Assembly: GCA_944381935.1 (NCBI GenBank)
Contig: CALWMN010000007.1
Location: 62,001 to 126,000 of the forward strand
Origin: an uncultured Mediterraneibacter sp.
Lineage (GTDB): Bacteria; Bacillota; Clostridia; Lachnospirales; Lachnospiraceae
Length of the DNA: 64,000 bases
Direction: 5' to 3'
A model generated the notes under the pieces. It had not been told where the DNA came from. It did not search any database and saw only the letters and a list, made by a program, of their open reading frames with translations. Numbering within the stretch: position 1 is the first letter of the stretch; every line of letters begins with the position of its first letter. Both the position numbers and the translations under genes were made by a program. Positions 1,064 to 35,325 of this stretch are shown here, piece by piece.

Positions 1064-1882
1064 ATGAGAATCCAACATAATATTTCAGCACTCAATTCTT
1101 ACCGTAACTTGACAACAAACAACAGCGCACTGAGCAAGAACCTTGAGAAACTGTCTTCCGGTTACGCAATCAACCGCGCAGGCGACGACGCAGCAGGACT
1201 TGCTATTTCCGAGAAGATGCGTGCTCAGATCACAGGTCTTGAGACAGCTCAGAAGAACGCTAATGATGCGATTTCTCTCGTACAGACAGCAGAGGGTGCC
1301 CTGACAGAAGTTCACTCCATGCTGAACCGTATGGTAGAGCTGGCTGTTCAGTCTGCAAACGGTACATATGATAATGATGTTGACCGTGCAAACCTTCAGG
1401 CTGAGGTTGACGCTCTTACAGAAGAGATTGACCGTATTTCAGAGTCCACAAACTTCAACGGAATCAAGCTGCTGGATGGTTCTTATTCCGGAACTCTTCA
1501 GATCGGCGACACAGCTGACGCGTTCAACCAGTTAAGCGCTCAGATTTCTGCGACAGATTCTGCTGCACTTGGGATTGATGGCGTTTCTGTTGCAAGCCAG
1601 GCAGGCGCTTCGGCAGCGATTTCCTCTATCAGGGCAGCCATCAACACGGTATCTTCTATCCGTGGTGGTCTTGGAGCGATCCAGAACCGTCTGGAGCACA
1701 CGATCAACAACCTGAGTGTTCAGACAGAGAACATCACCGCAGCAGAGAGCCGCATCCGCGACGTAGATATGGCGAACGAGATGATGGCTTACACGAAGAA
1801 CAACATCCTGGTACAGGCTTCACAGGCAATGCTTGCACAGGCAAACATGGTACCGCAGGGCGTTCTTCAGTTATTACAGTAA
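1064..1882 (+). CDS. hag: Flagellin
   Basis: The 272-residue filament subunit starts [16 protein letters not shown] after a GGGAGG site and ends [12 protein letters not shown]. The conserved N-terminal D0/D1 region (about 1-140, including [20 protein letters not shown]) and C-terminal D1/D0 region (about 200-272) are complete. The central region is only about 60 residues, so the surface-exposed D2/D3 domains are essentially missing. It is close in length to Bacillus Hag. The middle (about 145-185) is rich in Ser and Thr, the residues normally O-modified in flagellins. The genes immediately downstream encode glycosyltransferases and modification enzymes, so this protein is the likely acceptor. 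It is followed by a strong terminator, so the modification operon probably depends on readthrough or its own promoter. Confidence 0.97.
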
Positions 1883-1900
1883 GCGGGAACTTTCCAGACT

Positions 1901-1928
1901 CCCATCCCACCGTGGGATGGGGGTTTTT
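1901..1928 (+). terminator. Rho-independent terminator after flagellin
   Basis: CCCATCCCAC (1901-1910) pairs with GTGGGATGGG (1912-1921), followed by five T at 1924-1928. It lies 18 nt after the flagellin stop codon. Confidence 0.9.
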
Positions 1929-2000: not shown

Positions 2001-3359
2001 ATGTCAGAACAGAAGAGGAAGGTACGGTTATCCCAGTGCATGATCGTGAAAGATGAAGAGGGCAATATACGCAGGGCCCTCTCCTGGGGGAAGAAGGCAG
2101 TGTGTGAGCAGATCGTGGTGGACACGGGAAGCACGGACCGGACGGTGGAGATCGCCCGGGAGATGGGGGCGAAAGTGTTCCGCTTTGAGTGGTGCGATGA
2201 TTTTTCGGCAGCGAAGAACTACGCGATCGAGCAGGCGTCCGGGGAGTGGATCGCCTTTCTGGACGCGGATGAATATATGACGGAGGCAGATGCAGAGGCA
2301 CTGATGCAGATACTCTGTGAGATCGAGTCAGATGGGACGGGGGCAGAGAAGGCTCAGGTTATCCGGTGCGCGTGGCAGCAGATCGGCGAGGACGGACGTC
2401 CTTTTTCTGTGTCCGTGCAGGACCGGATCTTCCGTAATATCCCGGAAATCCGCTATCACGGGCGCATCCATGAGCAGGTCCGTCTTCCCGGCGGGGAAGC
2501 CATGATCTGTCAGGACGAGCAGAGAAGGCTGTCCATCTTTCACACGGGATATATCCCGTCCGTCATGAAAGAAAAGAGAAAGAGTGAGAGAAATATCCGG
2601 CTTCTCATGCGCGAGATAGAGGAGAAGCCGGGCAACGGCACTGCCTGGTCCTATCTGGGGGATGCGTACACCAGCCTCGGCGAGCTGCAAAAAGCGGCAG
2701 AGGCGTATGAAAAGGCGCTTTCCCCATCTTCTGAGGTCCGTGTAAGCCGGTGGGGCCGTGTGAACGCGGGGAAGAACCTGCTGAAGATGTATGCGAATCA
2801 TCCGTCTCTCGCCGGCTCAGATGAGAAGGCGGAGGAGACGGCGGTTAAGGCAGGGTATCCGGCGACGGATAACCCGGACATCTATTTCTTCCTTGGACTC
2901 TACCGCCTGAAAAAAGGGGACTATAAACGGGCATATGGCGATATGAAGCGTGCGTTCCAACTGTTGGAGATCTATCAGGGGGATGACGTGATCTACCTGA
3001 GAGGCACCCTTGAGAAAGCATATGTCTGGATGGCAGGGCTCTGCCAGCAGATGAAGCTTCCGGCAGAAGAACTGCGCTATACGGTCCTTGCCCTGGGGAA
3101 GAACCGGTATCAGGAGAGTGTCCTGTGCGAAATGCTTTTTCTTCTGCAAAAGGAAGACAAAGAGGGGAAGCAGACAGAAGGGGCGTGGAATCTTCTGTTG
3201 GGTATCTATCATATGGGATCACTCAAAGACATCCTCTTCCTGCTCAAATGCACCAGGATCGCAGGTTATCCCTACCCCGAAGACAGACTCTTAAACTATC
3301 TGCCCGAAGAAGTCAGAGACAGGCTGGCCAAAGGAGGAAAACACAGGGATGAAGATTAG
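2001..3359 (+). CDS. Family-2 glycosyltransferase with TPR domain (flagellin modification)
   Basis: The product has 452 residues. Residues 8-110 form a GT-A glycosyltransferase domain of family 2: LSQCMIVKDEE at the start, VVDTGSTDRT at 40-48, and the metal/nucleotide-binding DAD at 88-90 in AFLDADEY. Helical tetratricopeptide-like repeats follow from about 205 (AWSYLGDAYTSLGELQKAAEAYEKAL). This architecture occurs in enzymes that put the first sugar on a protein, such as SunS, and in clostridial flagellin glycosyltransferases. The position, right behind flagellin, supports transfer of a sugar to flagellin Ser/Thr in the cytoplasm. The start is the ATG after AGGAAGG. It overlaps its paralogue by 11 nt. 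The sugar donor cannot be read from sequence. Confidence 0.87.
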   Translation: MSEQKRKVRLSQCMIVKDEEGNIRRALSWGKKAVCEQIVVDTGSTDRTVEIAREMGAKVFRFEWCDDFSAAKNYAIEQASGEWIAFLDADEYMTEADAEALMQILCEIESDGTGAEKAQVIRCAWQQIGEDGRPFSVSVQDRIFRNIPEIRYHGRIHEQVRLPGGEAMICQDEQRRLSIFHTGYIPSVMKEKRKSERNIRLLMREIEEKPGNGTAWSYLGDAYTSLGELQKAAEAYEKALSPSSEVRVSRWGRVNAGKNLLKMYANHPSLAGSDEKAEETAVKAGYPATDNPDIYFFLGLYRLKKGDYKRAYGDMKRAFQLLEIYQGDDVIYLRGTLEKAYVWMAGLCQQMKLPAEELRYTVLALGKNRYQESVLCEMLFLLQKEDKEGKQTEGAWNLLLGIYHMGSLKDILFLLKCTRIAGYPYPEDRLLNYLPEEVRDRLAKGGKHRDED

Positions 3360-4713
3360 AAAAAAAATCAGGTTATCTCAGTGCATGATCGTAAAAAATG
3401 AAGAGAAAAATATCCGGCGCGCCCTCTCCTGGGGAAAGGGCATTGTGTGTGAACAGATCGTCGTAGATACAGGCAGCACGGACCGGACGGTGGAGATCGC
3501 CCGGGAGATGGGGGCAAAGATCTTTCACTTTGAATGGATCGACGACTTTTCAGCGGCGAAGAACTATGCCATCGAACAGGCGTCAGGGGACTGGATCGCG
3601 TTTCTGGATGCGGACGAGTATTTTACGGAAGCAAGCGTACAGAAGATCCTGCCTGTTATCCAGAAAGTGGAAAAAGGCGCATATAGCGGCAGCGAGATTG
3701 TGGCCATTGCTACAGAGCTGATGAGCATTGATGAGAAAGGGCGCCCGGGAGTCTCGGGACAGCAGATCCGGATCTTTCGGAACATCCCGAAGCTCAGATA
3801 CAGGAACAGGATCCATGAGGAACTGGAGTATGCCGGCCGCGGGACATTTGACGTCCTCGATTCCCGGGGAGATCTGACGATCTACCATACGGGTTATACA
3901 AAGGAAGCATTTGAACAGACCGGTAAGAGCGAGAGAAATATCCGTATGCTGAAGAAAGAACTGGAGGATGATCCTGAAAATGTAGGGGCGCTTGTGTATC
4001 TGGGCGACTCTTATATGACGGGAAATTCCTATGAAAAGGCAAAGGAATGTTTCCATGAAGCGCTGAAATACGGCACAGAAAAGGAGGACACCCTGCCGAA
4101 GGATCTGCTGAGGGCAGCATCGATGCTGCTGATCCTGTATGCGCGCGACCCGGCGCCGGAGCAGGAGGAGACGGTGCGGGAGATCCATGAGAAATATCGG
4201 GAAATGCACAGCGACCACCCGGATGCAGACTGCTATTTCGGCGTGTGGCTATATGAGAATAAATATTATGAAGAAGCAGCGGGATATCTGAAGGCGTCTT
4301 TGGACAAGTTCAAGAGATACAAAGGGAGCGTGCAGGTATATATGTCTGCAAATCTGAAGATGGCCTATGCCCAGCTCGGAGACTGCTGTCTCCGGCAGGA
4401 GCAGTATGAAGATGCGGTACGGTATTTTACCATGTCGCTGGGTGTGGACCGATACTATACGGAGGCGCTTGTCATGCTTCTGAATATCTTCAAGAGGGAA
4501 GAAGGGGAGGCGGATACGGCGGCAGGGTCATGGACGCTTCTGTCCCATCTGTATAACCTGTCTTCCCTTAAGGATCAGATGATGATGCTAAAGGGGGCAA
4601 AGCTGGCGTCCTTCCCGGTTCTGGAAGAACGGATATACGGCGTCATGCCTGCTGAACAGCGCCGCGTGGTGCAGGAAGCGCTGGCAAAAAAAGCGAAGGA
4701 GAAGAGCAGATGA
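3349..4713 (+). CDS. Family-2 glycosyltransferase with TPR domain (paralogue)
   Basis: The 454-residue protein is a tandem duplicate of the gene before it. The first 90 residues are nearly the same, including VVDTGSTDRTVEIAREMGAK and FLDADEYFTEA, and the DNA is also close over this stretch. The C-terminal TPR halves have diverged. The same domain order applies: GT2 domain about 6-110 with the DAD motif near 87, then repeats from about 205 (GALVYLGDSYMTGNSYEKAK). It overlaps the upstream stop by 11 nt and the next gene by 4 nt, so translation is coupled. Diverged TPR parts with a conserved catalytic part suggest different acceptor sites or sequential action. This is inference. Confidence 0.87.
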   Translation: MKIRKKIRLSQCMIVKNEEKNIRRALSWGKGIVCEQIVVDTGSTDRTVEIAREMGAKIFHFEWIDDFSAAKNYAIEQASGDWIAFLDADEYFTEASVQKILPVIQKVEKGAYSGSEIVAIATELMSIDEKGRPGVSGQQIRIFRNIPKLRYRNRIHEELEYAGRGTFDVLDSRGDLTIYHTGYTKEAFEQTGKSERNIRMLKKELEDDPENVGALVYLGDSYMTGNSYEKAKECFHEALKYGTEKEDTLPKDLLRAASMLLILYARDPAPEQEETVREIHEKYREMHSDHPDADCYFGVWLYENKYYEEAAGYLKASLDKFKRYKGSVQVYMSANLKMAYAQLGDCCLRQEQYEDAVRYFTMSLGVDRYYTEALVMLLNIFKREEGEADTAAGSWTLLSHLYNLSSLKDQMMMLKGAKLASFPVLEERIYGVMPAEQRRVVQEALAKKAKEKSR

Positions 4714-6329
4714 GAAAAGCTCAGAAACAACAGATTGAAGAAACCTTTTCCCTGATGGGGAAAGTGCACGAAGAGATCAGAAAGCAGATAGCGGACGGGA
4801 ATCGTGAGAATGTCCTGCAGCTCTTAAGCGACTGCCAGGAAGGGGCCATACAGGCAGGAAACCTGATCGAGCAGGTCGAGGGGGAGGATGCCCCGGCTAT
4901 CGGCAGGATCGAGGAATACTGTGAGACCTGCTACCGGATCTATGAGAATGTGTCAGGGGAGGAGGAGCAGAATCCGTCAGGTGTATACCGGCTGCTCCAG
5001 AAGATGCTTGCAGCGATGGAAAGCGGCGTCAGGCTGACGGTTCCGGTACGACTGGAGATCGCCTTCTTCTGTTATAAGGCAAGTATGAGCGACTCTCTGG
5101 AGAGCATTTACTTTGCGGCAAAGGAAGATCCGACATGCGATGCGTATTTTATCCCGATCCCCTATTATGACAAGTATCCGAACGGAGCGTTCGGGGAGAT
5201 GCATTACGAGGCTGAAGGGTGTTACCCGGACACATACGAGCTGGTGGACTGGCAGAAATATAATGTGGAGCAGAGAAGACCGGATATCATCTATATCATG
5301 AACCCCTACGACGGAGCAAACCTTGTCACCAGCGTGCATCCAGATTACTATGCGGAGAGGCTGCGGAATCTGACGGACTGTCTTGTGTATGTGCCGTATA
5401 ACATTTCACCGGCAGATCCCCGTCCGGAAAAGTCGATGGCTCCGGGCGTGTTGTTCTCAGATTTGATGTTCGTACAGTCAGACCATATCAGGGACGTCTA
5501 TATAGAGAATTTCCTGAAACATAATGATATTGAAGGGCTGACGCCTAAGGTGGCGCGGGAGAAAATCATATCTATGGGATCGCCGAAGCTGGACAAGCTT
5601 GCCAATACCGGCAGGGAAGACTATGCCCTGCCCTCAGAGTGGGAGAAGCTTGTGGGATCCCGGGCAGGGGAGCGTAAGGTCATCCTCTATAACCTTACGA
5701 TTGCCAGTATGCTGGGAGGGACACAAGACGGCAGCGACCTGTACCTGAAAAAGCTCAAAAGTGCGCTGGAGTACTTCAGGAAGCGGCAGGATGCCGTGCT
5801 GTGGCTGCGTCCCCATCCGCTTCTGCTGCAGACGTTTGATACTATGCGCCCTCAGCTTGCTGCTGAATACAGGGAACTGATCACTGCATACAGGAATGAA
5901 GGATGGGGCATTTATGATGACACACCGGATATGAACCGGGCAATCATATGGGCAGACGCTGTCTACGGGGACAGAGCGTCCCTGGCGGTGCTGGCTGAAT
6001 TTGTGGGGAAACCGGTGCTGATACGGAATATAACAAATTCAGGAAACGAGCCGGAGCAGCCGGGAAGCGCTGAAGCGGTAAAGGAGGTCATGGACGGTTT
6101 ATCCGTCAGGGATGGGGCCCATTATTATGTCATCCCCGAGGCGGAAGGAGCGACCGGGGAAGGAAAGCTCAGCATCGCCGACTTCCTGGGGCACATGGAC
6201 GTGATCTTGGAGCACAGGGATGAACAGATGAATCAGTTCCGGGCGAGATTTGCCAATCCGGACGGGACTGCCGGAAGGAGGATACATGAATACACAACGG
6301 CTCTTGTCAGGAGAGCGAGAGGAGAATAA
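4710..6329 (+). CDS. CDP-glycerol glycerophosphotransferase-like protein
   Basis: The 539-residue protein starts ATGA-coupled to the preceding gene. The first 110 residues are helical and unassigned. The rest resembles the CDP-glycerol glycerophosphotransferase family, a GT-B-like fold that moves a phospho-alcohol from CDP to a carrier: IASMLGGTQDG near 330, WLRPHPLL near 370, and DTPDMNRAIIWADAVYGDRA near 405, followed by GKPVLI. Similar proteins occur in Clostridioides flagellin-modification loci next to a nucleotidyltransferase. Here it stands beside LicD and two cytidylyltransferases, so a CMP-linked phosphonate or phospho-alcohol is a natural donor candidate. No signal peptide or membrane segment is visible, in keeping with a cytoplasmic step. 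The exact substrate is unknown. Confidence 0.65.
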   Translation: MRKAQKQQIEETFSLMGKVHEEIRKQIADGNRENVLQLLSDCQEGAIQAGNLIEQVEGEDAPAIGRIEEYCETCYRIYENVSGEEEQNPSGVYRLLQKMLAAMESGVRLTVPVRLEIAFFCYKASMSDSLESIYFAAKEDPTCDAYFIPIPYYDKYPNGAFGEMHYEAEGCYPDTYELVDWQKYNVEQRRPDIIYIMNPYDGANLVTSVHPDYYAERLRNLTDCLVYVPYNISPADPRPEKSMAPGVLFSDLMFVQSDHIRDVYIENFLKHNDIEGLTPKVAREKIISMGSPKLDKLANTGREDYALPSEWEKLVGSRAGERKVILYNLTIASMLGGTQDGSDLYLKKLKSALEYFRKRQDAVLWLRPHPLLLQTFDTMRPQLAAEYRELITAYRNEGWGIYDDTPDMNRAIIWADAVYGDRASLAVLAEFVGKPVLIRNITNSGNEPEQPGSAEAVKEVMDGLSVRDGAHYYVIPEAEGATGEGKLSIADFLGHMDVILEHRDEQMNQFRARFANPDGTAGRRIHEYTTALVRRARGE

Positions 6330-6331
6330 TC

Positions 6332-7213
6332 ATGGCAAAAGGGATTAAAATGCCGCCGGAGGATTTGCGGAAGCTGCAGATGATCGAGCTGGAGATGCTT
6401 CTGGAGGTAGACCGTATCTGCAGGAAGCATCACATACAGTACTTTCTCGCTGCGGGCAGCCTGTTGGGAGCGGTACGCCACGGCGGGTTCATACCGTGGG
6501 ATGACGATGCGGACCTCTATATGCTGCGGAAAGACTATGAACGTTTCCTGGACATTTGCAAAACAGAGTTAAATACAGATAAATACTTCATGCAGACGTA
6601 TGAAACCGATCCCGAGTATCGCTGGTTCTACGGCAAGCTCAGAAGGAAAGGGACAGAATTTTTACGCGCCGGGCAGGAGGCGATCCGCTGCATGTCGGGA
6701 GTGTCCATTGATATTTTTGTGATGGATAATCAGCCGGATCATTACGTTCCCTGGCTGATCTTTACCCTTCTCAGAAGGGGATGCATTAAAACTCTCTGGT
6801 CAGTAGTGGGAGCTACTGAGGAAAAGGTAAAGTGGAAAAGATGCCTTTACCGCGTGCTGCGGCATGTAAACAAAAGGATTCCCCTGGGGATCATGAACTG
6901 CATGCAGAAGATTACAAACCGCAGGCAGGCGAGAAAAGTGTGCTGCATCGGATTCTACAGAAACAGTCCCTGGACCCAGAAACGGAAAAAAGGGGAACTG
7001 TGGGGATACCGCCGAAAATGGTTTTCTGATACAGTGGAAATAGAGTTTGAAGGATTCTCATTTCGGGCATTTAAAGAATACAAGGAATATTTACGTTGGA
7101 TGTATGGCGATTACATGACGTTACCGCCGGAAGAAGAGCGGTTTTCTCATACGCCGTGCAGATATCAGATAAACGTTGAGCCAGATTTAACAGGCGCGTG
7201 GAGGACAGAATGA
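6332..7213 (+). CDS. LicD-family phospho-alcohol transferase
   Basis: The 293-residue product has the LicD signature: FLAAGSLLGAVRHGGFIPW at 38-56 followed by DDDAD at 57-61, the nucleotidyltransferase-like active site with acidic metal ligands. LicD of pathogens moves phosphocholine from CDP-choline to surface glycans, and relatives act with other phospho-alcohols. In this operon it is followed by a PEP mutase fusion, and no choline kinase or choline uptake gene is in view. A CMP-activated phosphonate such as 2-hydroxyethylphosphonate is therefore a plausible donor. It begins 2 nt after the upstream stop and overlaps the next start by 4 nt. Confidence 0.85.
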   Translation: MAKGIKMPPEDLRKLQMIELEMLLEVDRICRKHHIQYFLAAGSLLGAVRHGGFIPWDDDADLYMLRKDYERFLDICKTELNTDKYFMQTYETDPEYRWFYGKLRRKGTEFLRAGQEAIRCMSGVSIDIFVMDNQPDHYVPWLIFTLLRRGCIKTLWSVVGATEEKVKWKRCLYRVLRHVNKRIPLGIMNCMQKITNRRQARKVCCIGFYRNSPWTQKRKKGELWGYRRKWFSDTVEIEFEGFSFRAFKEYKEYLRWMYGDYMTLPPEEERFSHTPCRYQINVEPDLTGAWRTE

Positions 7214-8487
7214 AAAAGGTATTTTTGAGTATAGGCGCTGATTTTATTCACGGCGGACATATCGCGATTATAAAAAAGGCGGCGGAACTGGGGGAGCTGA
7301 CCGTTGGAGTTCTTACAGATGAGGCAATTATGTCCTACAGGCCGTATCCGATCCTCTCTTTTGAAGAGCGTGTGGAGATTGTGGGGAATATAGCGGGGGT
7401 TTCCCGGGTGATTCCCAAGAACAGCCGCAGCTATGAGGAAATCATAAAGACGGAACAGCCGGATATTGTCGTTCATGGAGATGGCTGGAAAGGAAAAGTG
7501 CGGGAAGAGCTCCTTGAGCTTCTGAACAAATATGGCGGGGAGCTTGTAGAATTTCCTTACACTCACAAGACAGAGTATCAGATGTATGAGCGGCACAGGG
7601 AAGCCATCCGACATATGCCTGATATGAGACGCGGGATGCTTAAGCGGCTTCTGGGAGAGCTCAGGCGTCCTGTCCGCGTCATGGAAGCCCATAACGGACT
7701 TACGGGGCTGATTGTCGAGAAAACAAGGGTTGAGGTTGAAGATGAGGTGAGGGCGTTTGACGCTATGTGGGTGTCCTCACTTTGCGATTCCACTTCAAAA
7801 GGGAAACCGGATATTGAGCTTGTCGATATGACTTCCAGGATGAATACGATCAATGAAATTATGGAAGTTACGACAAAACCCATTATCCTGGACGCAGATA
7901 CGGGCGGACTTCCCGAGCACTTTGAATACAATGTCAGAACAGTGGAACGTCTTGGGGTCTCAGCAGTCATTATCGAAGATAAAATGGGACTGAAAAAAAA
8001 CTCTCTGTTCGGAAATGAGGTTCAGCAGCAGCAGGCGTCCATTGAAGACTTCTGTGAAAAGATCAAAGCAGGGAAACGCGCGCAGCAGACGAAAGAGTTC
8101 ATGATTATTGCAAGAATCGAGAGCCTGATTCTTGAACAGGGAATGGACGACGCCCTGAAAAGAGCGGACGCCTATGTAAAGTCAGGAGCGGACGGGGTCA
8201 TGATCCACTCGAGGAGCAAGAAGCCAGACGAGGTGATAGAGTTCTGCAGCAGATTCCGTGAGATGTACCCGGATATCCCTATTATAGTTGTACCTACTAC
8301 ATATAATACAATACGCGAACAGGAACTCTACGAGGCAGGAATAAACGTAGTGATATACGCAAATCAGCTGATACGGAGTGCTTTTCCGGCGATGAAAGAG
8401 ACTGCGGAGCTGATCCTTACGACGCAGAGAGGAAAGGAAGCTGATGAGAAATGTATGCCGATCAAAGAGATTTTAACTTTGATCTGA
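7210..8487 (+). CDS. pepM: Cytidylyltransferase-phosphoenolpyruvate mutase fusion
   Basis: The 425-residue protein has two domains. Residues 1-135 are a nucleotidyltransferase of the glycerol-3-phosphate cytidylyltransferase type with the HxGH-like motif H14-G-G-H17. Residues 155-425 are PEP mutase: EAHNGLTGLIVE at 159-170, DADTGG at 228-233 (metal site), and EDKMGLKKNS at 256-265, matching the mutase signature EDK-x5-NS that separates it from isocitrate lyases. PEP mutase makes the C-P bond: PEP to phosphonopyruvate. The equilibrium is unfavourable, so a decarboxylase must follow; a candidate is at 34.1 kb. The start chosen is ATG 7210, with GTGGAGG as ribosome site and an ATGA overlap with licD, rather than GTG at 7198. 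The fused domain suggests nucleotide activation of the phosphonate. Confidence 0.92.
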   Translation: MKKVFLSIGADFIHGGHIAIIKKAAELGELTVGVLTDEAIMSYRPYPILSFEERVEIVGNIAGVSRVIPKNSRSYEEIIKTEQPDIVVHGDGWKGKVREELLELLNKYGGELVEFPYTHKTEYQMYERHREAIRHMPDMRRGMLKRLLGELRRPVRVMEAHNGLTGLIVEKTRVEVEDEVRAFDAMWVSSLCDSTSKGKPDIELVDMTSRMNTINEIMEVTTKPIILDADTGGLPEHFEYNVRTVERLGVSAVIIEDKMGLKKNSLFGNEVQQQQASIEDFCEKIKAGKRAQQTKEFMIIARIESLILEQGMDDALKRADAYVKSGADGVMIHSRSKKPDEVIEFCSRFREMYPDIPIIVVPTTYNTIREQELYEAGINVVIYANQLIRSAFPAMKETAELILTTQRGKEADEKCMPIKEILTLI

Positions 8488-8516
8488 CACATGGAACACA
8501 GCGCAGGCTATAAATA

Positions 8517-9227
8517 ATGAAAGCATTGATATTAAACTCCGGTATGGGCAGCAGGATGGGGGACCTGACGAAAGAAAAACCGAAATGTATGACGGAGATT
8601 TCAAATGGGGAAACGATCCTGAAAAGGCAATTGTGCCAGCTTGTGAAAGCCGGGATTTCGGATGTGGTCATCACGACCGGTCTGCATAAGGAAGAGCTGA
8701 TGGAGTACTGCAGCTCCTTAAACCTGCCTTTAACTTACAGTTTTATCCATAATTCGGAATTTAAAGATACAAATTATATCTATTCGATCTATCTGGCAAG
8801 GGGTGTTCTCAGGAATACAGACATTCTTCTTATGCACGGAGACCTGGTCTTTGATTTTGACGTCCTGTCGCGTATTATCCGGCAGGCAGAGAGCAGCGTG
8901 GTTGTAAGTTCTTCCAGACCGCTGCCGGAAAAAGACTTTAAAGCAGTGATAAAGGATGGGTACGTTCAGAAGATTGGCGTTGAATTTTTTGAAAACGCTG
9001 TGGCTGCCCAGGCGCTTTATCATCTCTACGCCAATGAATGGGAGATATGGCTCCAACAGATAGAAGCGTACTGTCAATCTGGAAAGCGCAGTGTATATGC
9101 AGAAAATGCGTTAAATGAGGTGACGGATTCATGCCGCATCCGTCCGTTTGATGTGGAAGATGCGCTGTGCGATGAGATTGATACGCCGGAAGATTTGAAG
9201 AAAATACAAGAGTATGGGAAAACATGA
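8517..9227 (+). CDS. LicC/PntC-like nucleotidyltransferase (phosphonate or phospho-alcohol activation)
   Basis: The 236-residue protein has the sugar-nucleotidyltransferase fold: LNSGMGSRMGDLTKEKPKCM at 6-25 is the GxGxRxxxxT..PK nucleotide loop, and MHGDLVFDFDV near 100 carries the metal-binding acid. Short single-domain members of this type include LicC (choline-phosphate cytidylyltransferase) and PntC (2-aminoethylphosphonate cytidylyltransferase). Standing between PEP mutase and a phosphonoacetaldehyde reductase, it probably makes CMP-2-hydroxyethylphosphonate. The fused cytidylyltransferase in the previous gene would make one of the two redundant, or give them different substrates. The ribosome site before the ATG is poor. 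It overlaps the next gene by 4 nt. Confidence 0.75.
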   Translation: MKALILNSGMGSRMGDLTKEKPKCMTEISNGETILKRQLCQLVKAGISDVVITTGLHKEELMEYCSSLNLPLTYSFIHNSEFKDTNYIYSIYLARGVLRNTDILLMHGDLVFDFDVLSRIIRQAESSVVVSSSRPLPEKDFKAVIKDGYVQKIGVEFFENAVAAQALYHLYANEWEIWLQQIEAYCQSGKRSVYAENALNEVTDSCRIRPFDVEDALCDEIDTPEDLKKIQEYGKT

Positions 9228-10345
9228 CAGAGGATATGGAAATTAAAGCGCAGTATTTTAAGGAAACGGAATTATTTTTGTCATCGATAAAAAAAGAGAA
9301 ACAAAGACTGTTCGTTGTATGCGGACAGTCTTTCATGGGGGCGGAGCTGAGGGGAAAACTGGAAAAAACGGATCTGGACCTTGTATATTTTCATGATTTT
9401 TCTCCAAACCCCACGTATGAGTCTGCAGAAGCAGCGGCAACCGAATACAGGAAAAGCGGATGCAGCGCAGTTCTTGCCGCCGGGGGCGGGAGTGCGATCG
9501 ATGTGGCAAAGGCGGTCAAAGCCTTTGCCGGCATGAGTGAAGATAAAAACTATCTGGAGCAGGAAATTACAGAAAATGGGATTCCGCTGTATGCCATACC
9601 TACAACTGCGGGAAGCGGCAGCGAGGCTACGAAGTTTGCGGTGATCTATTACTGTGGGAAAAAGCAGTCGCTTACCCACCCTTCTCTGCTTCCCCGGAAA
9701 GTGCTGCTGGAGCCATCTGTTTTGAAGGGACTGCCTCTCTTTCAGAGGAAAGCCACTATGATGGACGCATTGTGCCATGCAGTTGAGTCGTTCTGGTCGG
9801 TGAACTCCACACAGGAGAGCAGAGAGTATTCCAAAGGCTCCCTCAATGGTATCCTAAAATATAAGGAGGGTTATCTGCGAAATACGGATGCGGGAAACGA
9901 GGGGATGCTGTATGCTGCCAATCTGGCAGGCAGGGCGATCAATATCACGCAGACGACCGCCGCGCATGCCATGTGCTATCAACTGACTACGCGTTATCAT
10001 CTGCCGCATGGAGGCGCGGCGGTAATCTGCCTTCCGTATCTTTGGTCATATATGCTGGAACACTCGGAACTTTGTACAGATTCCCGCGGACCGGATTATC
10101 TGAGAGGGATTTTCTCTGATATAGCAGAGGCGCTCGGCTGCCAGACGCCCCGTGAAGCAATTCAGATGCTTCATGAATGGATCAGGGGGCTGGAACTGGA
10201 GATTCCTGCTGTGCCGGAAAGCGAGATTGAATCCCTGGCGGCATGTGTAAATTCAGACAGGCTGAAAAATAATCCGGTGAGGCTAGAGCAGGCAGATATT
10301 CAGTGTATTTATCGACAGATGTTTCACCGCACCGAGGAGGAATAG
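9224..10345 (+). CDS. Phosphonoacetaldehyde reductase (iron-type alcohol dehydrogenase)
   Basis: The 373-residue protein is a group III alcohol dehydrogenase: GGGSAIDVAKA at 87-97 binds NAD(P), IPTTAGSGSEATKF at 125-138, and metal ligands D181, H185, H248 and H262 are in place (MMDALCHAVES, TTAAHAM, RYHLPHG). Relatives in phosphonate clusters, such as PhpC, reduce phosphonoacetaldehyde to 2-hydroxyethylphosphonate. Next to PEP mutase this is the best-supported role. No aminotransferase that would divert the aldehyde to 2-aminoethylphosphonate is seen in the window. The gene overlaps the upstream stop by 4 nt. A partial copy with a 260-bp internal deletion lies at 12.4-12.7 kb. Confidence 0.85.
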   Translation: MTEDMEIKAQYFKETELFLSSIKKEKQRLFVVCGQSFMGAELRGKLEKTDLDLVYFHDFSPNPTYESAEAAATEYRKSGCSAVLAAGGGSAIDVAKAVKAFAGMSEDKNYLEQEITENGIPLYAIPTTAGSGSEATKFAVIYYCGKKQSLTHPSLLPRKVLLEPSVLKGLPLFQRKATMMDALCHAVESFWSVNSTQESREYSKGSLNGILKYKEGYLRNTDAGNEGMLYAANLAGRAINITQTTAAHAMCYQLTTRYHLPHGGAAVICLPYLWSYMLEHSELCTDSRGPDYLRGIFSDIAEALGCQTPREAIQMLHEWIRGLELEIPAVPESEIESLAACVNSDRLKNNPVRLEQADIQCIYRQMFHRTEEE

Positions 10346-10349
10346 ATTC

Positions 10350-11504
10350 ATGCAAATAAAGAACTGCGGTTCGGAAGAGTTTATCGAAAACCTGAAAGGG
10401 AGAAAGGTGATCTGCTTTGGGGCGGGCGCCAGAATGATCAAGGCAGATTATGCAGTAAATCATATAGAAAACCATATCGCTTTTTTCGTAGATAACGATG
10501 AGAAGAAACAGGGATTGACATTTCAATATTTAGGACGTGAATTTGATATTAAAAGTCCGGATGTATTGAAAACCCTTGATACAAAAGATTATGTACTTCT
10601 GATTACGTGCGGTTCCTACATTGAAATATACAGTCAGCTAAAGGATATCGCAGAGCTTAGAGACATGGAGTGCTATATCTATGAGTCAATGTGCAGATAT
10701 CCCGAAACTGATATGGAACAGTTTTTCACCGAGGAACTTCAAAACCCCGCGTTTCATGACTGGAAACAGGTACTGGAAAGGCATAATCTGAAGAATAAGC
10801 ACCGGGGAAGAAGATGCTTCCTGATAGGGAACGGACCGAGCCTGAAGGCGGAAGACCTGGAGCTTTTAAAGGATGAAATTACATTTGCGGCAAATCGCAT
10901 TTATATGCTGTTTGATAAGACAAAATGGCGACCGACATACTACTTTTGTGTAGATGCCAGATGTTATGGCATAGATCACAGGAAAATAAAAGAGATGGAC
11001 GCAGAACTGAGATTTGTCCCTTTGAACACGGGAGTAATGGCAGGGAAAGTATACGATGAAGTCACATATTATAACAGAAAAATAAATTATGTTGAAGTTA
11101 ATCAGGGAAATGTCGTATTCAAAAGCGAGGTTAAATTTTCCTGTGATGCCGAAAAAGCCGTATATGCAGGGGGGACTGTTTTGTATGATGCCCTGCAGTG
11201 GGCGGTTTATATGGGATTTTCTGAAATATATCTCCTGGGTGTTGACTGCAGTTACGCATATGAAATGACAAAGGATGGAACAGTTGTCGCAACAGATATG
11301 GAAAAAAGCCATTTCGATGAAAAATATGAGACGGGTTTTAACGGGGCAGCAGAACCATTTCGCATGTTCACAGCCTGGGAGCAGGCTAAGAAAAGCTGTG
11401 AGGAAAAAGGGATTGTCATTAAGAACGCCACCAGGGGAGGAAAACTGGATATATTCGAGAGAGTCTCTCTGGAAGATATCATAAGAACAAGGAAAACTGA
11501 ATGA
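10350..11504 (+). CDS. MAF-type (DUF115) motility-associated glycosyltransferase-like protein, copy 1
   Basis: The 384-residue protein has an N-terminal Rossmann-like part (VICFGAGARM at 20-29, FFVDNDEKK at 45-53) and a DUF115/MAF domain from about 150: CFLIGNGPSLKAEDL at 156-170, TKWRPTYYFCVD at 191-202 and IYLLGVDCSY at 293-302. MAF proteins in Campylobacter, Clostridium and Geobacillus add nonulosonic acid or other sugars to flagellin. They fit both cassettes of this locus. The gene lies 4 nt after the reductase, with GAGGAGG as its ribosome site. An intact copy, mostly identical, follows at 12.7-13.9 kb. Confidence 0.82.
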   Translation: MQIKNCGSEEFIENLKGRKVICFGAGARMIKADYAVNHIENHIAFFVDNDEKKQGLTFQYLGREFDIKSPDVLKTLDTKDYVLLITCGSYIEIYSQLKDIAELRDMECYIYESMCRYPETDMEQFFTEELQNPAFHDWKQVLERHNLKNKHRGRRCFLIGNGPSLKAEDLELLKDEITFAANRIYMLFDKTKWRPTYYFCVDARCYGIDHRKIKEMDAELRFVPLNTGVMAGKVYDEVTYYNRKINYVEVNQGNVVFKSEVKFSCDAEKAVYAGGTVLYDALQWAVYMGFSEIYLLGVDCSYAYEMTKDGTVVATDMEKSHFDEKYETGFNGAAEPFRMFTAWEQAKKSCEEKGIVIKNATRGGKLDIFERVSLEDIIRTRKTE

Positions 11505-12706: not shown

Positions 12707-13861
12707 ATGCAAATAAGGAACTGCGGCTCTGAAGCGTTCATCGGAAACCTGAAAGGGAGAAAGGTGATCTGCTTTGGGGCAGGACTCAGAATGATTAAAG
12801 CAGCTTATATAGTAAAAAATATAGAAAACCATATCGCTTTTTTTGTAGATAACGATGAGAAGAAACAGGGATTGACATTTCAATATTTAGGACGAGAATT
12901 TGACATTAAAAGTCCGGATGTATTGAAAACCGTTGATACAAAAGATTATGTACTTCTGATTACGTGCGTTTCCTACATTGAAATATACAGTCAGCTGAAG
13001 GATATCGCAGAGCTTAAAGACATGGAGTGCTATATCTATGAGACGATGTGCAGATATCCCGAAACTGATCTGGAACGATTTTTCACTGAGGAAATCCAAA
13101 AACCCGCGTTTCATGACTGGAAACAGATACTGGAAAGCCATAATCTGAAAAATAGGCACCGGGGAAAAAGATGCTTCCTGATAGGGAACGGGCCAAGCCT
13201 GAAGGCGGAAGACCTGGAGCTTTTAAAGGATGAGATTACATTTGCGGCAAATCGCATTTATATGCTGTTTGATAAGACAAAATGGAGACCAACATACTTC
13301 TTTTGCGTAGATTCTGGACTTTATAGTATGGATCACAGGAAAATCAGGGAAATAGACTCAGAGCTGAGATTTGTTCCTTTGAATACAGGAATAACGGCAG
13401 GAAAAGTATATGATGAAGTTATATATTACAACAGAGCAATGAACTTTGTTGAAGTTAAGCAGGAGAAAGTTGTATTTAAAAATAAGGTTAAATTTTCCTA
13501 TGATGCAGAGAAAGTCGTATATGGAGGGGGTACTGTTTTGTATGATGCCCTGCAGTGGGCGGTTTATATGGGATTTTCTGAAATATATCTATTAGGGGTT
13601 GACTGCAGTTATAAATTTGAAAGGACTGCGGATGGAAAAGTTATTGAAAATGATATAGACAAAGGGCATTTTGATGAAAGGTATAGTGCCGGAATTAGTA
13701 GTGTATCAGAAACATTCCGCATGCTTATAGCCTGGGAGCAGGCCAAGAGTAGTTGTGAAGAAAAGGGGATTGTCATTAAGAACGCCACCAGAGGAGGAAA
13801 ACTGGACGTCTTTGAGAGAGTCTCTCTAGAAGATATAATAAGAACAAAGGATACTGTTTAA
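12707..13861 (+). CDS. MAF-type (DUF115) motility-associated glycosyltransferase-like protein, copy 2
   Basis: The 384-residue protein has the same length as copy 1 at 10350-11504 and the same motifs (CFLIGNGPSLKAEDL, TKWRPTYFFCVD, IYLLGVDCSY, NATRGGKLD). Differences are concentrated in two stretches: about 200-270 (FCVDSGLYSMDHRKIREIDS versus FCVDARCYGIDHRKIKEMDA) and 305-335. The rest is almost unchanged, which suggests diversification of a substrate-contacting part after a recent duplication. The ribosome site is GAGGGAG before ATG 12707. Base composition drops visibly after its end. Confidence 0.82.
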   Translation: MQIRNCGSEAFIGNLKGRKVICFGAGLRMIKAAYIVKNIENHIAFFVDNDEKKQGLTFQYLGREFDIKSPDVLKTVDTKDYVLLITCVSYIEIYSQLKDIAELKDMECYIYETMCRYPETDLERFFTEEIQKPAFHDWKQILESHNLKNRHRGKRCFLIGNGPSLKAEDLELLKDEITFAANRIYMLFDKTKWRPTYFFCVDSGLYSMDHRKIREIDSELRFVPLNTGITAGKVYDEVIYYNRAMNFVEVKQEKVVFKNKVKFSYDAEKVVYGGGTVLYDALQWAVYMGFSEIYLLGVDCSYKFERTADGKVIENDIDKGHFDERYSAGISSVSETFRMLIAWEQAKSSCEEKGIVIKNATRGGKLDVFERVSLEDIIRTKDTV

Positions 13862-16653: not shown

Positions 16654-17307
16654 ATGGCAGAAAAGGTAGTATCGTTTATACCAATCAAGCTGAATAATCA
16701 GCGTTTACCGGGGAAAAATCTGATGGATCTAGCGGGCAAACCCTTGTGTAACTATATATTTCAAACAGTGAAACAGATTAATTCGATTGACGAAAAATAT
16801 GTTTATTGTAGTGATGACAGAATCAAAGATTATATTCCGGAAGGTCTGTCTTATTTGAAAAGAGATACTTACCTGGATGGATATCAGGTAAAAGGTCTTG
16901 AAATAATTGAATATTTCTTAAAGGATGTTGTGGCGGATGTCTATGTGCTGACACATGTTACACAACCGTTTACCCGGGTAGCTTCTATAGAAAATGCGCT
17001 GAATAAAGTATTGTATGAGGGATATGATTCTGCATTTAGCTGTGTGAAATTACAGGACTATTGTTGGTATCAGGGCAAGCCTTTTAATTACGATATGAAG
17101 AACATAGTAACGACGCAGAACCTGGAACCGATTTATATGGAAACAGGCGCCTTCTTTATATTCAGAAGAGAGGTTTTTGAGAAACTGCATCAGCGAATTG
17201 GCTCAAACCCTTATATGTATGTGATAGATCAGTTTGAGGCGGTAGATATTGACACTGCAGAAGACTTTGAATTTGCAAAGGTAGTTGCAGAGTATTTGAA
17301 GGGGTGA
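16654..17307 (+). CDS. CMP-sugar (nonulosonate-type) cytidylyltransferase
   Basis: The 217-residue protein starts VVSFIPIKLNNQRLPGKNLM, the CTP-binding loop of NeuA/KdsB-like enzymes, and carries LTHVTQPFTR near 90 and EAVDIDTAEDFEFA near the end, where the second metal-binding acids lie. These enzymes couple acidic nine- or eight-carbon sugars to CMP. It is 4 nt before an aldolase gene and followed by a KdsC-like phosphatase, the three-gene order expected for making and activating an acidic sugar. The actual sugar is not predictable. Confidence 0.85.
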   Translation: MAEKVVSFIPIKLNNQRLPGKNLMDLAGKPLCNYIFQTVKQINSIDEKYVYCSDDRIKDYIPEGLSYLKRDTYLDGYQVKGLEIIEYFLKDVVADVYVLTHVTQPFTRVASIENALNKVLYEGYDSAFSCVKLQDYCWYQGKPFNYDMKNIVTTQNLEPIYMETGAFFIFRREVFEKLHQRIGSNPYMYVIDQFEAVDIDTAEDFEFAKVVAEYLKG

Positions 17308-17311
17308 CTGT

Positions 17312-18937
17312 ATGAAGAATATACAAATACTTGATTGTACATTGCGAGATGGTGGGAGGATCATTGACTGCGCTTTTAAAGATGACGTAATACGAGAAAT
17401 GACGGAGAAACTGATAAATGCGGGAATTGATATTGTTGAAGTGGGATTTTTAAGGGATAAGCGGAATACAGATTATGAGGGTAATTCTACTTTTTTTACG
17501 AAAGTTTCACAGATAGAACCCTTTATTCCCCAAAATTGTGATGGAAAAATGTGCGTTGCATTTATAGATTTCCATATGTATGATTTTGATGACCTTGAGC
17601 CATGCAATGGGAAATCTGTTACGGGAATCAGAGTCGGTTTTACAAAAAAGCAATGGGATGAAGAGCGTCAAGAACTTAAGAGATGCTTTTTGAGAGTTAA
17701 AGAGCAAGGGTATAAACTGATGGTGCAGGGAGTTAATTCTCTGGCATATTCAGATAGGGAATTACTGGATGTAGTAGATATGCTTAATGAAATAGAGCCA
17801 TACAGCTTCGGAATTGTAGATACATATGGAGCTATGTATCTGGATGATATTGTGCATTACTATAATCTTGTTGACTATAATTTAAAACCCAACATACATA
17901 TTGATATTCATTCACACAATAATTTTCAATTGTCGTTTGCATTTGCGCAGGAGATTATTTCTTTGAGTAATCAAAAAAGGGGCATTATTCTGGATGCAAC
18001 ATTGAATGGCATGGGAAAGTGTGCAGGAAACCTTAATACTGAATTAGTTGTGGACTATTTGGTCAGAAAAAAGTATTATCATTATGATTTTGAAGCAATT
18101 TTAGATATTATTGATGATTATATTTACGATATAAAGCAGCATCAGGGGTGGGGATATTCTATCCCTGCTTTTATGGCGGGCATTTATAAATCGCACCCTA
18201 ACAATGTGATTTATCTTACAAAGAAATATCGAATGGGTGCAAAGGATATTGGCAATATCATCTTTATGATTGATGAAGAAATGCGTCAGCGCTATGATTA
18301 TGATAATATAGAACGTTTGTATATTGAATACAATAACGGAAAACTGAATGATGATGAAAACATCCAGATGTTGAGAAAGGAAATGGAAGGCAGGGATGTG
18401 CTGGTTATTGTTCCAGGACACACTATTACTGAATACGAAGAAAAAATCGACTCATTTGTAGAAAAAAATAATCCAATTATAATAAGTGTTAATTTTTACT
18501 CAAAATACGAGAGCAGTTATGTATTCTGGGGAAATAAGAAACGTTTTCGCATAGAAGATGAAAGAAACAGCTCTTATCGGAATATTATCTGTTCAAATGT
18601 CCATGAACAAATGCCTGGATTATGTGTAGTGAATTTTTATTCTCTTATTAATAAAGGATATAAATATTTTGACAATTCAACCATAATGTTGCTGAATCTT
18701 CTCAGAAAAGTTAAAGTGAAAAAAATCACACTAGCAGGATTTGACGGTTTTGATGAAAAGCTCAAAGAAAATTTTATAGACAAATCTTTCCATAATGACA
18801 GGCATATAGGTATCTTTAAAGAACTAAACCAGGAATTGGAAGAAATGTTAGGGCAGTATGTATCTACAGTGAAGAATGAATGTGAGTTATCATTTCTTAC
18901 ATCGAGCAAATTTGAAAAAGTTGTCAGAGAGCAATAA
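17312..18937 (+). CDS. DRE-TIM (HMG-CoA lyase-like) aldolase with extra C-terminal domain
   Basis: The 541-residue protein begins MKNIQILDCTLRDGGR, the metal- and substrate-binding loop of DRE-TIM metallolyases such as 4-hydroxy-2-oxovalerate aldolase. The metal-binding HIDIHSHNNFQ motif is near 196-206, and NGMGKCAGNLNTE near 233-245 marks the barrel end. Residues from about 350 form a second domain (VLVIVPGHTITEYEEKI) that I do not recognise. Such proteins occur in surface-glycan clusters with unknown reaction; cleavage or formation of a pyruvate-containing sugar is plausible. Here it takes the place where NeuB would stand in a sialic-acid-type pathway. It could therefore build an ulosonic acid from pyruvate rather than PEP. 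Confidence 0.75.
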   Translation: MKNIQILDCTLRDGGRIIDCAFKDDVIREMTEKLINAGIDIVEVGFLRDKRNTDYEGNSTFFTKVSQIEPFIPQNCDGKMCVAFIDFHMYDFDDLEPCNGKSVTGIRVGFTKKQWDEERQELKRCFLRVKEQGYKLMVQGVNSLAYSDRELLDVVDMLNEIEPYSFGIVDTYGAMYLDDIVHYYNLVDYNLKPNIHIDIHSHNNFQLSFAFAQEIISLSNQKRGIILDATLNGMGKCAGNLNTELVVDYLVRKKYYHYDFEAILDIIDDYIYDIKQHQGWGYSIPAFMAGIYKSHPNNVIYLTKKYRMGAKDIGNIIFMIDEEMRQRYDYDNIERLYIEYNNGKLNDDENIQMLRKEMEGRDVLVIVPGHTITEYEEKIDSFVEKNNPIIISVNFYSKYESSYVFWGNKKRFRIEDERNSSYRNIICSNVHEQMPGLCVVNFYSLINKGYKYFDNSTIMLLNLLRKVKVKKITLAGFDGFDEKLKENFIDKSFHNDRHIGIFKELNQELEEMLGQYVSTVKNECELSFLTSSKFEKVVREQ

Positions 18938-19018
18938 GCATTAGATAGAGCTCTACTATCTGCAGGTTCTATCGTTTTGCAAACACCTAAATTCTGGTTA
19001 AAAGGGAAAAGGAGTAGA

Positions 19019-19498
19019 ATGGATAAAAAAATTAAAGTATTTGTCATGGATGTTGATGGCACGTTAACCGATGGAAAAATTTATATGGGTGAAAACGGCG
19101 AACTGTTTAAAGTGTTTCATATAAAAGATGGATATGGCATTCATGATATATTATCCAAACGGGGGGTTATTACAGTCATTCTGACAGGGAGGACGTCAAA
19201 AATTGTGTTGCAAAGAAGCAAGGAACTGGAAATAGATTATGTGTTTCAGAATGTAAAGGACAAAGAACTTGCTATTTGTCAATTACTGGATAAACTGAAT
19301 CTTAGTTTGGATGAGACAGCATATGTAGGAGACGATATCATCGATCTGTCGGCGATGAAACTGTGTAAAGTGAAGGGATGTCCGGTTGATGCAGTCTATC
19401 AGGTAAAAGAAATCTGTGATTTTGTTTCAGACAAAAAAGGAGGTGAAGGTGCCGTCAGAGATTTTATTGAATGGATGAAGGGTAAAGAGCTGATATAG
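19019..19498 (+). CDS. KdsC-like HAD phosphatase
   Basis: The 159-residue protein starts at ATG 19019 after AAAAGGAG. It shows VFVMDVDGTLTDG with catalytic D11 and D13, ILTGRTS (motif II), and AYVGDDIIDLSAM (motif IV), without a cap domain. This is the form of the tetrameric KdsC group that removes phosphate from 8- or 9-carbon ulosonic acid phosphates. It completes an aldolase, phosphatase and CMP-synthetase set in this cassette. The opposite cassette has the same phosphatase fused to its CMP-synthetase. Confidence 0.85.
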   Translation: MDKKIKVFVMDVDGTLTDGKIYMGENGELFKVFHIKDGYGIHDILSKRGVITVILTGRTSKIVLQRSKELEIDYVFQNVKDKELAICQLLDKLNLSLDETAYVGDDIIDLSAMKLCKVKGCPVDAVYQVKEICDFVSDKKGGEGAVRDFIEWMKGKELI

Positions 19499-33765: not shown

Positions 33766-34086
33766 GAAAACGGCTAATTATACGTGGAACAGAGCATATG
33801 ATCCATGGGAATATGACTGCATGACTGAGCAATATCCATATATTGATAAAAAACAGGACGGCGTGTAAAGTTTTTGGTGACCCGCCAAAGGGAGTCCCAG
33901 TACAGGATATTTGGTTCAATTATAGGGATTCAATTAACCAACTCCAAAAGACAACGGGGTATCCAACTGAAAAAAATATGGAATAGTATTGAATATCTGA
34001 AAGCTATCCTTAAACGTTTTGCAGATGAACTTGATGTTTATGGTGATTATGCAAATAACATGACATATGAACAAAGCACATTATAT
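33766..34086 (+). pseudogene. Relic of a second copy of the 23.4-24.6 kb DNA methyltransferase
   Basis: Stretches of near-identical DNA match three separate parts of the intact gene: residues about 185-212 (TANYTWNRPYDPWEYD region), 273-312 (KGVPVQDIW, TTGYPTEKNM) and 351-395 (LKRFTDGLDVYGDY). Two deletions of roughly 180 and 120 bp separate them and frames no longer agree. Both catalytic motifs, DPPF and FAGSGT, are lost. It abuts the 3' end of the convergent phosphonopyruvate decarboxylase gene. Confidence 0.87.
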
Positions 34087-34088
34087 TT

Positions 34089-35213
34089 TCACTTTCCGCT
34101 CTCTTTTATATATTCCATAAAATCCTGTCTGTTCTCTTCTGTTGTTGTCGTAGGCCTGCCAAGATCCGCCCTTGCCCCGATCGCGGCTTTTACCTCGATA
34201 AAAGTCAGCTCACCGTTATCTTTTGCGGCACGCAGCGCGTCTCTTAATTCATCTTTTGTTGTTACTGTCTCCGTCCGTGGATATCCGCACGCCGCTGCAA
34301 CGTCTGCCAGCCGGGTTTCCTTAGCCACCGTCGGGATTCCGCCGACAGTCTCGTGGGCTTCGTTATTGATGACGATATGGATCAAATTGGAAGGTTTCCG
34401 GCTTCCGATGACAGCCATAGCTCCCATATGCATCAGTGCTGCCCCGTCTCCGTCGATACACCATACTTTCTTCCCGGGTTTCGCAAGGGCGATTCCAAGC
34501 GCGATGGAACTGCTGTGCCCCATAGAACCTACGGTCAGGAAATCCCTCCCGTGTCCCTGTCCCCTGTGTTCCCTGATTTCAAAAAGCTCTCTGCTGGCTT
34601 TCCCCGTTGTCGAGACGATAAGATCATCTCCTGAAACTTCCGTGATACATTCGATGATGGTTTCCCTTGTCATCGGGTAAGGGTTCTTATAATGCAATTT
34701 ATCCTCATACTTCAGGGCGCCTTTGCGGACCACGAAAGCCACACTGCTGCCCTCGCTCAGCAGAGGTTTCGAGGCTTCCATCATTTCTTTCAGTTCATTT
34801 TCCGTTGTATCAACGGAAATGATAAAAGGCCTGATCCCCATATCTTCCAGAAGCCTTACCGTGACCTCGCCCTGATAGATATGCTGAGGTTCGTCATGTA
34901 CTTCCGGTTCTCCGCGCCATCCCACTACAAAAATACAGGGAATGGCATACACTTTTTTATGGAGCAGGGAAACTGCAGGGTTGAGCATGTTTCCAAGTCC
35001 GCTGTTCTGCATATAGACAAGCGGGACTTCCCCTGTGGCAAGATAATGTCCTGCTGCAAGGGCAGTGCAGTTCCCCTCGTTTGCAGCCACAATATGATTT
35101 TCCGAAATCCCGTATGTATGCATCAGATAATCGCACAAAGGTCTCAAGAGAGAGTCTGGAACGCCGGTATAAAATTTTGCCCCTAAGATTTTCACAAAGC
35201 TCTTAACATCCAT
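34089..35213 (-). CDS. ppd: Phosphonopyruvate decarboxylase
   Basis: The 374-residue thiamine-diphosphate enzyme starts at ATG 35213 after AGGAG. The first residues VKSFVKILGAKFYTGVPDSL and NEGNCTALAAGHYLATGEVP with YMQNSGLGNMLNP are characteristic of phosphonopyruvate decarboxylase and its sulfopyruvate relatives. GDGAALMHMGAM, then IVINNEAHETVGG near 260-295, is the thiamine-diphosphate and Mg binding segment. VHDEPQH is also typical. It decarboxylates phosphonopyruvate to phosphonoacetaldehyde, making the mutase reaction irreversible. Mutase and reductase are at 7.2-10.3 kb, so the pathway is complete in this window but split by intervening cassettes. It stands alone on the - strand. Confidence 0.9.
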   Translation of the reverse strand: MDVKSFVKILGAKFYTGVPDSLLRPLCDYLMHTYGISENHIVAANEGNCTALAAGHYLATGEVPLVYMQNSGLGNMLNPAVSLLHKKVYAIPCIFVVGWRGEPEVHDEPQHIYQGEVTVRLLEDMGIRPFIISVDTTENELKEMMEASKPLLSEGSSVAFVVRKGALKYEDKLHYKNPYPMTRETIIECITEVSGDDLIVSTTGKASRELFEIREHRGQGHGRDFLTVGSMGHSSSIALGIALAKPGKKVWCIDGDGAALMHMGAMAVIGSRKPSNLIHIVINNEAHETVGGIPTVAKETRLADVAAACGYPRTETVTTKDELRDALRAAKDNGELTFIEVKAAIGARADLGRPTTTTEENRQDFMEYIKESGK

Positions 35214-35325
35214 CTTATTTATCTCCTGTAAACAAATCCTGATAGGTAAATCAGGCATATTCTGTTTATGCCACGAATTTTACCATCTATATTTTATATC
35301 AACGGAGTGAGAAGCACAAGTATCA

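Follow-up and report, generated by a model that had tools for sequence, protein, structure and literature searches.

A predicted hydroxyethylphosphonate pathway within a flagellin modification locus of an uncultured Mediterraneibacter

A flagellin modification locus in an uncultured Mediterraneibacter sp. probably produces 2-hydroxyethylphosphonate (HEP) and activates it for attachment to the flagellin glycan. The locus lies in a stretch of 64,000 nt (C7:62001-126000, hereafter the window) of a genome of 3.04 Mb in 54 contigs. We found the locus to be real, intact and conserved. All of the genes named in the initial annotation, which had described phosphonate biosynthesis inside a flagellin modification operon, are present. 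The features concerned are listed by window coordinates and strand, with the bit scores of their family matches.

1064..1882, plus strand: fliC, a flagellin of 272 amino acids and the presumed acceptor (PF00669 157.8 bits, PF00700 103.3 bits)
1896..1926, plus strand: terminator-like hairpin separating fliC from the modification genes (14 pairs, then a T-rich tail; a consensus match only)
2001..3359, plus strand: GTa, a GT2 + TPR, SunS-like glycosyltransferase (PF00535 67.2 bits)
3349..4713, plus strand: GTb, a second GT2 + TPR, SunS-like glycosyltransferase (PF00535 74.8 bits), overlapping GTa by 11 nt
4710..6329, plus strand: CGP, a distant relative of CDP-glycerol glycerophosphotransferases and candidate phospho-group transferase (PF04464 18.2 bits)
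6332..7213, plus strand: LicD-type phosphotransferase, by prediction the most likely HEP transferase (PF04991 142.9 bits)
7210..8487, plus strand: Fom1-like fusion of an N-terminal cytidylyltransferase (CyT) with a C-terminal phosphoenolpyruvate (PEP) mutase, PepM (PF01467 48.7 bits, PF13714 203.4 bits)
8517..9227, plus strand: LicC/PntC-like nucleotidyltransferase (NTase; PF12804 46.1 bits)
9224..10345, plus strand: Fe-alcohol dehydrogenase (Fe-ADH), the predicted phosphonoacetaldehyde reductase (PF00465 119.2 bits)
10350..11504, plus strand: Maf1, a Maf-type (MptE-like) protein starting 4 nt after Fe-ADH (PF01973 58.1 bits)
12707..13861, plus strand: Maf2, a second Maf-type protein and near copy of Maf1 (similarity judged by eye)
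34089..35258, minus strand: ppd, phosphonopyruvate decarboxylase (TIGR03297 466 bits versus a cut-off of 312.5)

Candidate genes were present for every step of the route from PEP through phosphonopyruvate and phosphonoacetaldehyde to HEP, in agreement with the initial annotation, with PepM and Ppd assigned by curated cut-offs and the reductase by family and context. The first step, PEP to phosphonopyruvate, would be catalyzed by the C-terminal half of the fusion, which passed the PEP mutase equivalog (TIGR02320, 416 bits versus a cut-off of 319.6), carries the EDKx5NS signature as EDKMGLKKNS, and is the single PepM in the genome; the open reading frame list starts this gene at a GTG at 7198. 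Ppd, encoded at the only place in the genome above the TIGR03297 cut-off, would then yield phosphonoacetaldehyde, which Fe-ADH is predicted to reduce to HEP. The nearest curated model to Fe-ADH is PsrA (TIGR03405, 133 bits versus a cut-off of 424), and since no curated model passes its cut-off, the proposed specificity rests on context. A branch to 2-aminoethylphosphonate (AEP) was rejected, as the best whole-genome match to TIGR03301, the one AEP transaminase model searched, reached 48 bits versus a cut-off of 360.8. Catabolic use was also rejected: PhnJ is absent from the genome and no phosphonatase exceeded its cut-off, so there is no sign that phosphonate serves as a phosphorus source.

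The 3' part of a DNA-methyltransferase-like gene occurs in the window as two copies (23909-24525 and 33767-34088), the second of them degenerate and ending exactly where ppd begins (34089). The duplicate comprises three direct-repeat families with 88-93% identity, and the 9.6 kb between the copies hold glycan genes and an integrase-like gene. This arrangement may explain the displacement of ppd.

Activation of the product with cytidine monophosphate (CMP), which the initial annotation had offered as conjecture while overlooking the Fom1-type CyT domain fused to the N terminus of PEP mutase, now has direct sequence support as a predicted step, because of the match of that domain to Fom1 and its intact HxGH motif. 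Residues 8-123 of the fusion match the crystal structure of the Fom1 CyT domain (PDB 5x3d) with 117.5 bits, the next-best cytidylyltransferase scoring 41.5 bits, and the HxGH motif reads HGGH in the window protein. Neither HxGH nor EDKx5NS is disrupted in any of the 88 rows (87 loci plus the window); L085 and L086, which have PepM without a full fused match, were excluded from this count and from the tree described below and included in the module co-occurrence count. In the sections of Rice et al. 2019 (PMC6697681) on which we draw, Fom1 joins cytidine triphosphate (CTP) and HEP into CMP-HEP, and the N-terminal domain would carry out the same reaction here.

These genes are embedded in a flagellar setting. 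Late flagellar genes (FliD-, FlgK-, FlgL- and FliW-like, as read from the proteins, not from a profile search) fill the 20 kb upstream of the window, where a single weak Flagellin_N match was found (C7:56331, 31.5 bits), and fliC is the sole full flagellin match in the genome. Behind fliC, the plus strand carries GTa, GTb, CGP, LicD, CyT-PepM, NTase, Fe-ADH and Maf1 in that order, with intergenic gaps from GTa to Maf1 of -11 to +29 nt, including four overlaps. Flagellin, a Maf-type protein (PF01973) and other glycosyltransferases lie in one run, as in a flagellin glycosylation island, and the cluster also holds the putative pair of LicC/PntC-like NTase and LicD expected of Pnt-type tailoring.

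Transfer of HEP from CMP to a sugar on flagellin would fall to LicD or, less likely, to CGP, with the acceptor sugar put on flagellin by the SunS-like or Maf-type proteins. GTa scored 78.6 bits against SunS itself (TIGR04195), under the cut-off of 350, and LicD matched the structure of Fukutin-related protein at 28.9 bits. For CGP, the earlier description as a CDP-glycerol-transferase-like protein holds in the sense of distant relationship, whereas the PF04464 cut-off was missed (18.2 versus 22.1 bits; 21.5 bits for the copy in L117, a relative described below). PF04464 was matched by 17 of 22 aligned CGP homologues at E values up to 0.1 (best 1.9e-6), and comparison of the single protein and of the 22-row profile with solved structures gave chance-level matches only. 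A role of CGP or Fe-ADH in anti-phage defence was rejected, with no PADLOC match for either. Maf1 and Maf2, with their conserved blocks and repeated hairpin sites, seem to have arisen by tandem duplication not long ago.

NTase, CyT-PepM, Fe-ADH and Ppd recur together as a module in Clostridia, in most cases away from flagellin. PepM-CyT relatives occurred in 46 of 397 genomes of the family and in 32 of 391 genomes of the class. Among the 69 of 87 PepM loci flanked by 4 kb or more on each side, 26 had both NTase and Fe-ADH, five had NTase only, none had Fe-ADH only, and 38 had neither (Fisher p 2.4e-14, kinship ignored; Fe-ADHs below 170 bits, e.g., in L160 and L161, scored as absent). Ppd was found within 4 kb in 60 of these 69 loci and in 25 of the 26 with both genes. 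Furthermore, NTase, CyT and PEP mutase share one open frame in 26 of 41 loci with a same-strand NTase. Given the co-occurrence counts and in-frame fusions, NTase belongs to the dehydrogenase branch, a branch that thereby carries two nucleotidyltransferases, NTase and the CyT domain. The window NTase matched the structures of LicC (1jyk) at 41 bits and PntC (6pd1) at 33 bits.

The link to flagellin is strengthened by relatives in which the predicted module also accompanies flagellin: L117 (CASFID010000075.1) has the same core, and two other genera carry HEP-type modules within their flagellin islands. L117, the closest relative found (PepM 92%), has the order fliC-GTa-GTb-CGP-LicD-CyT/PepM-NTase, followed by three other genes and then Fe-ADH, and its ppd shares the strand of pepM, 13.4 kb further downstream; the genes flanking the shared core differ between the two. 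All nine genes compared between the window and L117 had ratios of nonsynonymous to synonymous substitution (dN/dS) of 0.05-0.22, indicating purifying selection, with dS of 0.38-1.17 making the ratios rough. By these values, we rejected the possibility of degenerate or decaying genes. Another genome of the same genus (G308) had neither a PepM nor a flagellin match. In the two other genera, G022 carries flagellin, GT2, a CGP relative (37%), LicD, Maf, CTP_transf_3, Maf, NTase-CyT-PepM, Fe-ADH and Ppd along ~37 kb of one strand, and G139 carries, also on one strand, two flagellins, two Maf-type genes, NeuA-/NeuB-type genes, LicD, NTase-CyT-PepM, Fe-ADH and Ppd. In G188, an HEP-type module lies 13.2 kb from flagellin on the opposite strand.

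Phosphonate genes of other types were also found near flagellin. Three family genomes have a PepM of another type at 1.3 kb (G177), 14.0 kb (G315, in a one-strand run) and 18.0 kb (G157) from flagellin, with no Fe-ADH above threshold in the fetched stretches. Among 13 named loci, flagellin was present in L117-L120, and the L123 genome has flagellin ~18.5 kb away. In L118-L120, behind flagellin come a protein without a Pfam match (scanned in L119), an APS-kinase-like gene, PepM-CyT, a radical-SAM/cytidylyltransferase fusion and Ppd. In L119 (11369-12790), this fusion, encoded between PepM-CyT and Ppd, combines a radical-SAM protein with a Fom1-like cytidylyltransferase; relatives occur in L118, L120-L123, L057, L063 and L070, beside flagellin in L118-L120, which suggests further modified phosphonates. 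Two flagellin-linked islands have APS-kinase-type genes immediately upstream of PepM-CyT (L195 15350-17179, L119 9470-9985), and sulfation may accompany phosphonate in islands of this kind. In L074 (16200-18710), LicD and a nucleotidyltransferase/choline-kinase fusion lie near two flagellins and PepM, so phosphocholine in addition to phosphonate is possible on that flagellin glycan.

Statistics for the flagellin link were modest, and the weight lies instead on the anatomy of the window, L117, G022 and G139. Flagellin lay within 20 kb of PepM in five of 45 other family genomes with PepM (31 flagellated), where ~1.5 were expected (P 0.015), a threshold picked after seeing the distances and with flagellin clusters hand-counted among the matches listed. 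Within 35 kb, six family genomes were found versus 2.6 expected (P 0.038). Enrichment of flagellin in PepM genomes was mild (32 of 46 versus 213 of 397 overall; Fisher p 0.027, kinship ignored). On a quick tree of the 88 rows, the 12 flagellin-linked rows need nine changes, at least five of them forced by well-supported branches, and we conclude from this that the link between flagellin and PepM arose more than once. Shuffling gave a mean of 11.4 changes, with 9 of 500 shuffles as low as observed; a weak flagellin-like match in L058 (34%, 97 bits) was not scored as flagellin-linked.

Several observations weigh against the proposal that the locus serves flagellin. The hairpin at 1896-1926 directly follows fliC and has the longest stem of the 12 terminator-like sites in the region (versus 10.0 in shuffles), so co-transcription of the modification genes with fliC is not certain. 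The ppd gene is 25.6 kb from the pepM cluster on the opposite strand. The share of loci with LicD was much the same whether they were of HEP type (11 of 32) or not (18 of 55), by which we rejected LicD as a marker of the HEP branch. CGP relatives are common without PepM, in 88 of 397 family genomes, and were beside none of the 87 PepM loci; flagellin was within the fetched stretch for three of 20 loci with CGP relatives, and for these reasons CGP probably serves flagellin glycans in general. Most PepM loci are without flagellin nearby, and among the matches listed flagellin was within 20 kb of PepM in none of another 29 PepM-bearing class genomes, 8 of them flagellated. Finally, two genomes in which no flagellin matched (L165/G417 and L166/G760) carry HEP genes alongside Maf-type ones, so a non-flagellar acceptor is possible.

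The distance of most family and class PepM loci from flagellin, the presence of the module in genomes that lack a flagellin match, including two where Maf-type genes adjoin it, and the displaced ppd flanked by a degenerate duplicated gene fragment all fit an alternative in which the module makes CMP-HEP for another surface polymer (capsule, teichoic-type or lipid) and a mobile surface-glycan cassette merely landed behind fliC. We consider this unlikely, though it is the strongest competitor, as the genes are interleaved near-gaplessly between the flagellin glycosyltransferases and Maf1, the core is kept with fliC in L117, and the quick tree with its forced changes argues for repeated association with flagellin.

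It is still less probable that the product is, as in Clostridioides difficile, AEP or another derivative, formed by an unrecognised aminotransferase, with Fe-ADH acting on another substrate. AEP is the sole phosphonate reported on a flagellin so far, going by the literature sections used here, and the PntC enzymes characterised by Rice et al. prefer it (PMC6697681, same sections). A DegT-type aminotransferase also lies inside the L117 cluster, and Fe-ADH scores far below its best-matching phosphonate-linked model. However, the TIGR03301 search, limited to that one model, gave no AEP transaminase above the cut-off, Fe-ADH goes with the module in 26 of 69 loci, and the fused domain belongs with that of Fom1, an enzyme known from the same sections to use HEP. 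It is highly improbable that these genes serve a diffusible phosphonate natural product or phosphorus storage and that flagellin is nearby by chance: PepM-CyT is the first fosfomycin enzyme and phosphonate antibiotics exist, but we saw no radical-SAM or other tailoring gene in the operon, its surroundings are LicD, glycosyltransferases and Maf, and neither PhnJ nor a phosphonatase exceeded its cut-off.

The predicted pathway resembles known systems in part. An exopolysaccharide of Glycomyces bears HEP, likewise on a surface glycan, although on a polysaccharide and not on flagellin. Fom1 of the Streptomyces fosfomycin pathway has the same two-domain order as the window fusion, to whose CyT domain its structure gave the 5x3d match above; Fom1 serves an antibiotic, whereas the window fusion lies amid LicD, Maf and flagellin genes and has an additional NTase. 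Pnt clusters, with PntC and LicD, likewise combine PEP mutase, nucleotidyltransferases and LicD for surface decoration, and 42 proteins (2.8%) are Ppm triple fusions with PF12804 and PF01467, the make-up of 26 of the 41 relatives here (Rice et al. 2019, PMC6697681, same sections). The string 'flagell' occurs 0 times in the main text of that paper. In marine Prochlorococcus, phosphonate was found in the protein fraction and its authors postulate surface glycoproteins (PMC8931226, in the portion used here), differing from the window in organism and gene context and in having no flagellin.

Closest to our proposal is the type A flagellin glycan of C. difficile, which contradicts the earlier statement that phosphonate-decorated flagellin is not described. 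In the sections of Hensbergen et al. 2022 (PMC8861647) considered here, AEP is attached to N-acetylglucosamine of the type A glycan of FliC, the phospho-sugar modification cluster cd0240-cd0244 starts with a glycosyltransferase, and C. difficile is negative for pepM, the origin of AEP being left open. Both systems would place a phosphonate on the flagellin glycan; that of C. difficile is AEP, on a small part of the glycan and in a pepM-less organism, whereas the window has a full biosynthetic set in the flagellin locus and HEP is predicted. Among open-licence PMC papers, outside which most subscription papers fall so that absence is unproven, we found no report of HEP on flagellin or of pepM in a flagellin locus.

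Other genes in the glycan region of the window showed unusual combinations. Three neighbouring genes at 16654-19498 encode CTP_transf_3, an HMGL-like aldolase protein of 541 aa and a protein judged HAD-like by eye; L135 and L166 have homologues of CTP_transf_3 and of the aldolase protein. Together the three may supply a CMP-activated acidic sugar by a route not yet described. A citrate-lyase-ligase-type nucleotidyltransferase domain (PF08218) ends two proteins of this region (19777-21963, 240 bits; 30340-31944, 233 bits), with no citrate lyase context seen.

With slightly less assurance than for the HEP reading of the locus, we favour the wider view that anaerobic Clostridia have repeatedly evolved the modification of flagellin by phosphonate as a dedicated trait. 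The HEP/CMP cassette would have been built into flagellin islands several times (in the window genus, G022 and G139), and other phosphonate chemistries occur beside flagellin, including the radical-SAM/cytidylyltransferase type in Oscillospiraceae. Phosphonate on a flagellin was already known from the 2022 report of AEP, which lowers the novelty; new here are the dedicated, repeatedly assembled gene islands and the prediction of HEP in place of AEP. The sole reported flagellin phosphonate, AEP in C. difficile, is without a known biosynthetic route as far as the cited sections go, and if our reading is correct, bacteria such as these could be the source sought for AEP on the flagellin of that pepM-less species. 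With a full route, a domain for activation and transferase candidates all encoded at a flagellin locus, in an arrangement found repeatedly, the questions of who phosphonylates flagellin, how and why are now directly testable. On this view, these bacteria would cap their flagella with phosphonates that resist hydrolysis. Placed on a surface protein that is abundant and visible to the immune system, the C-P bond would withstand phosphatases and alter the charge of the protein.

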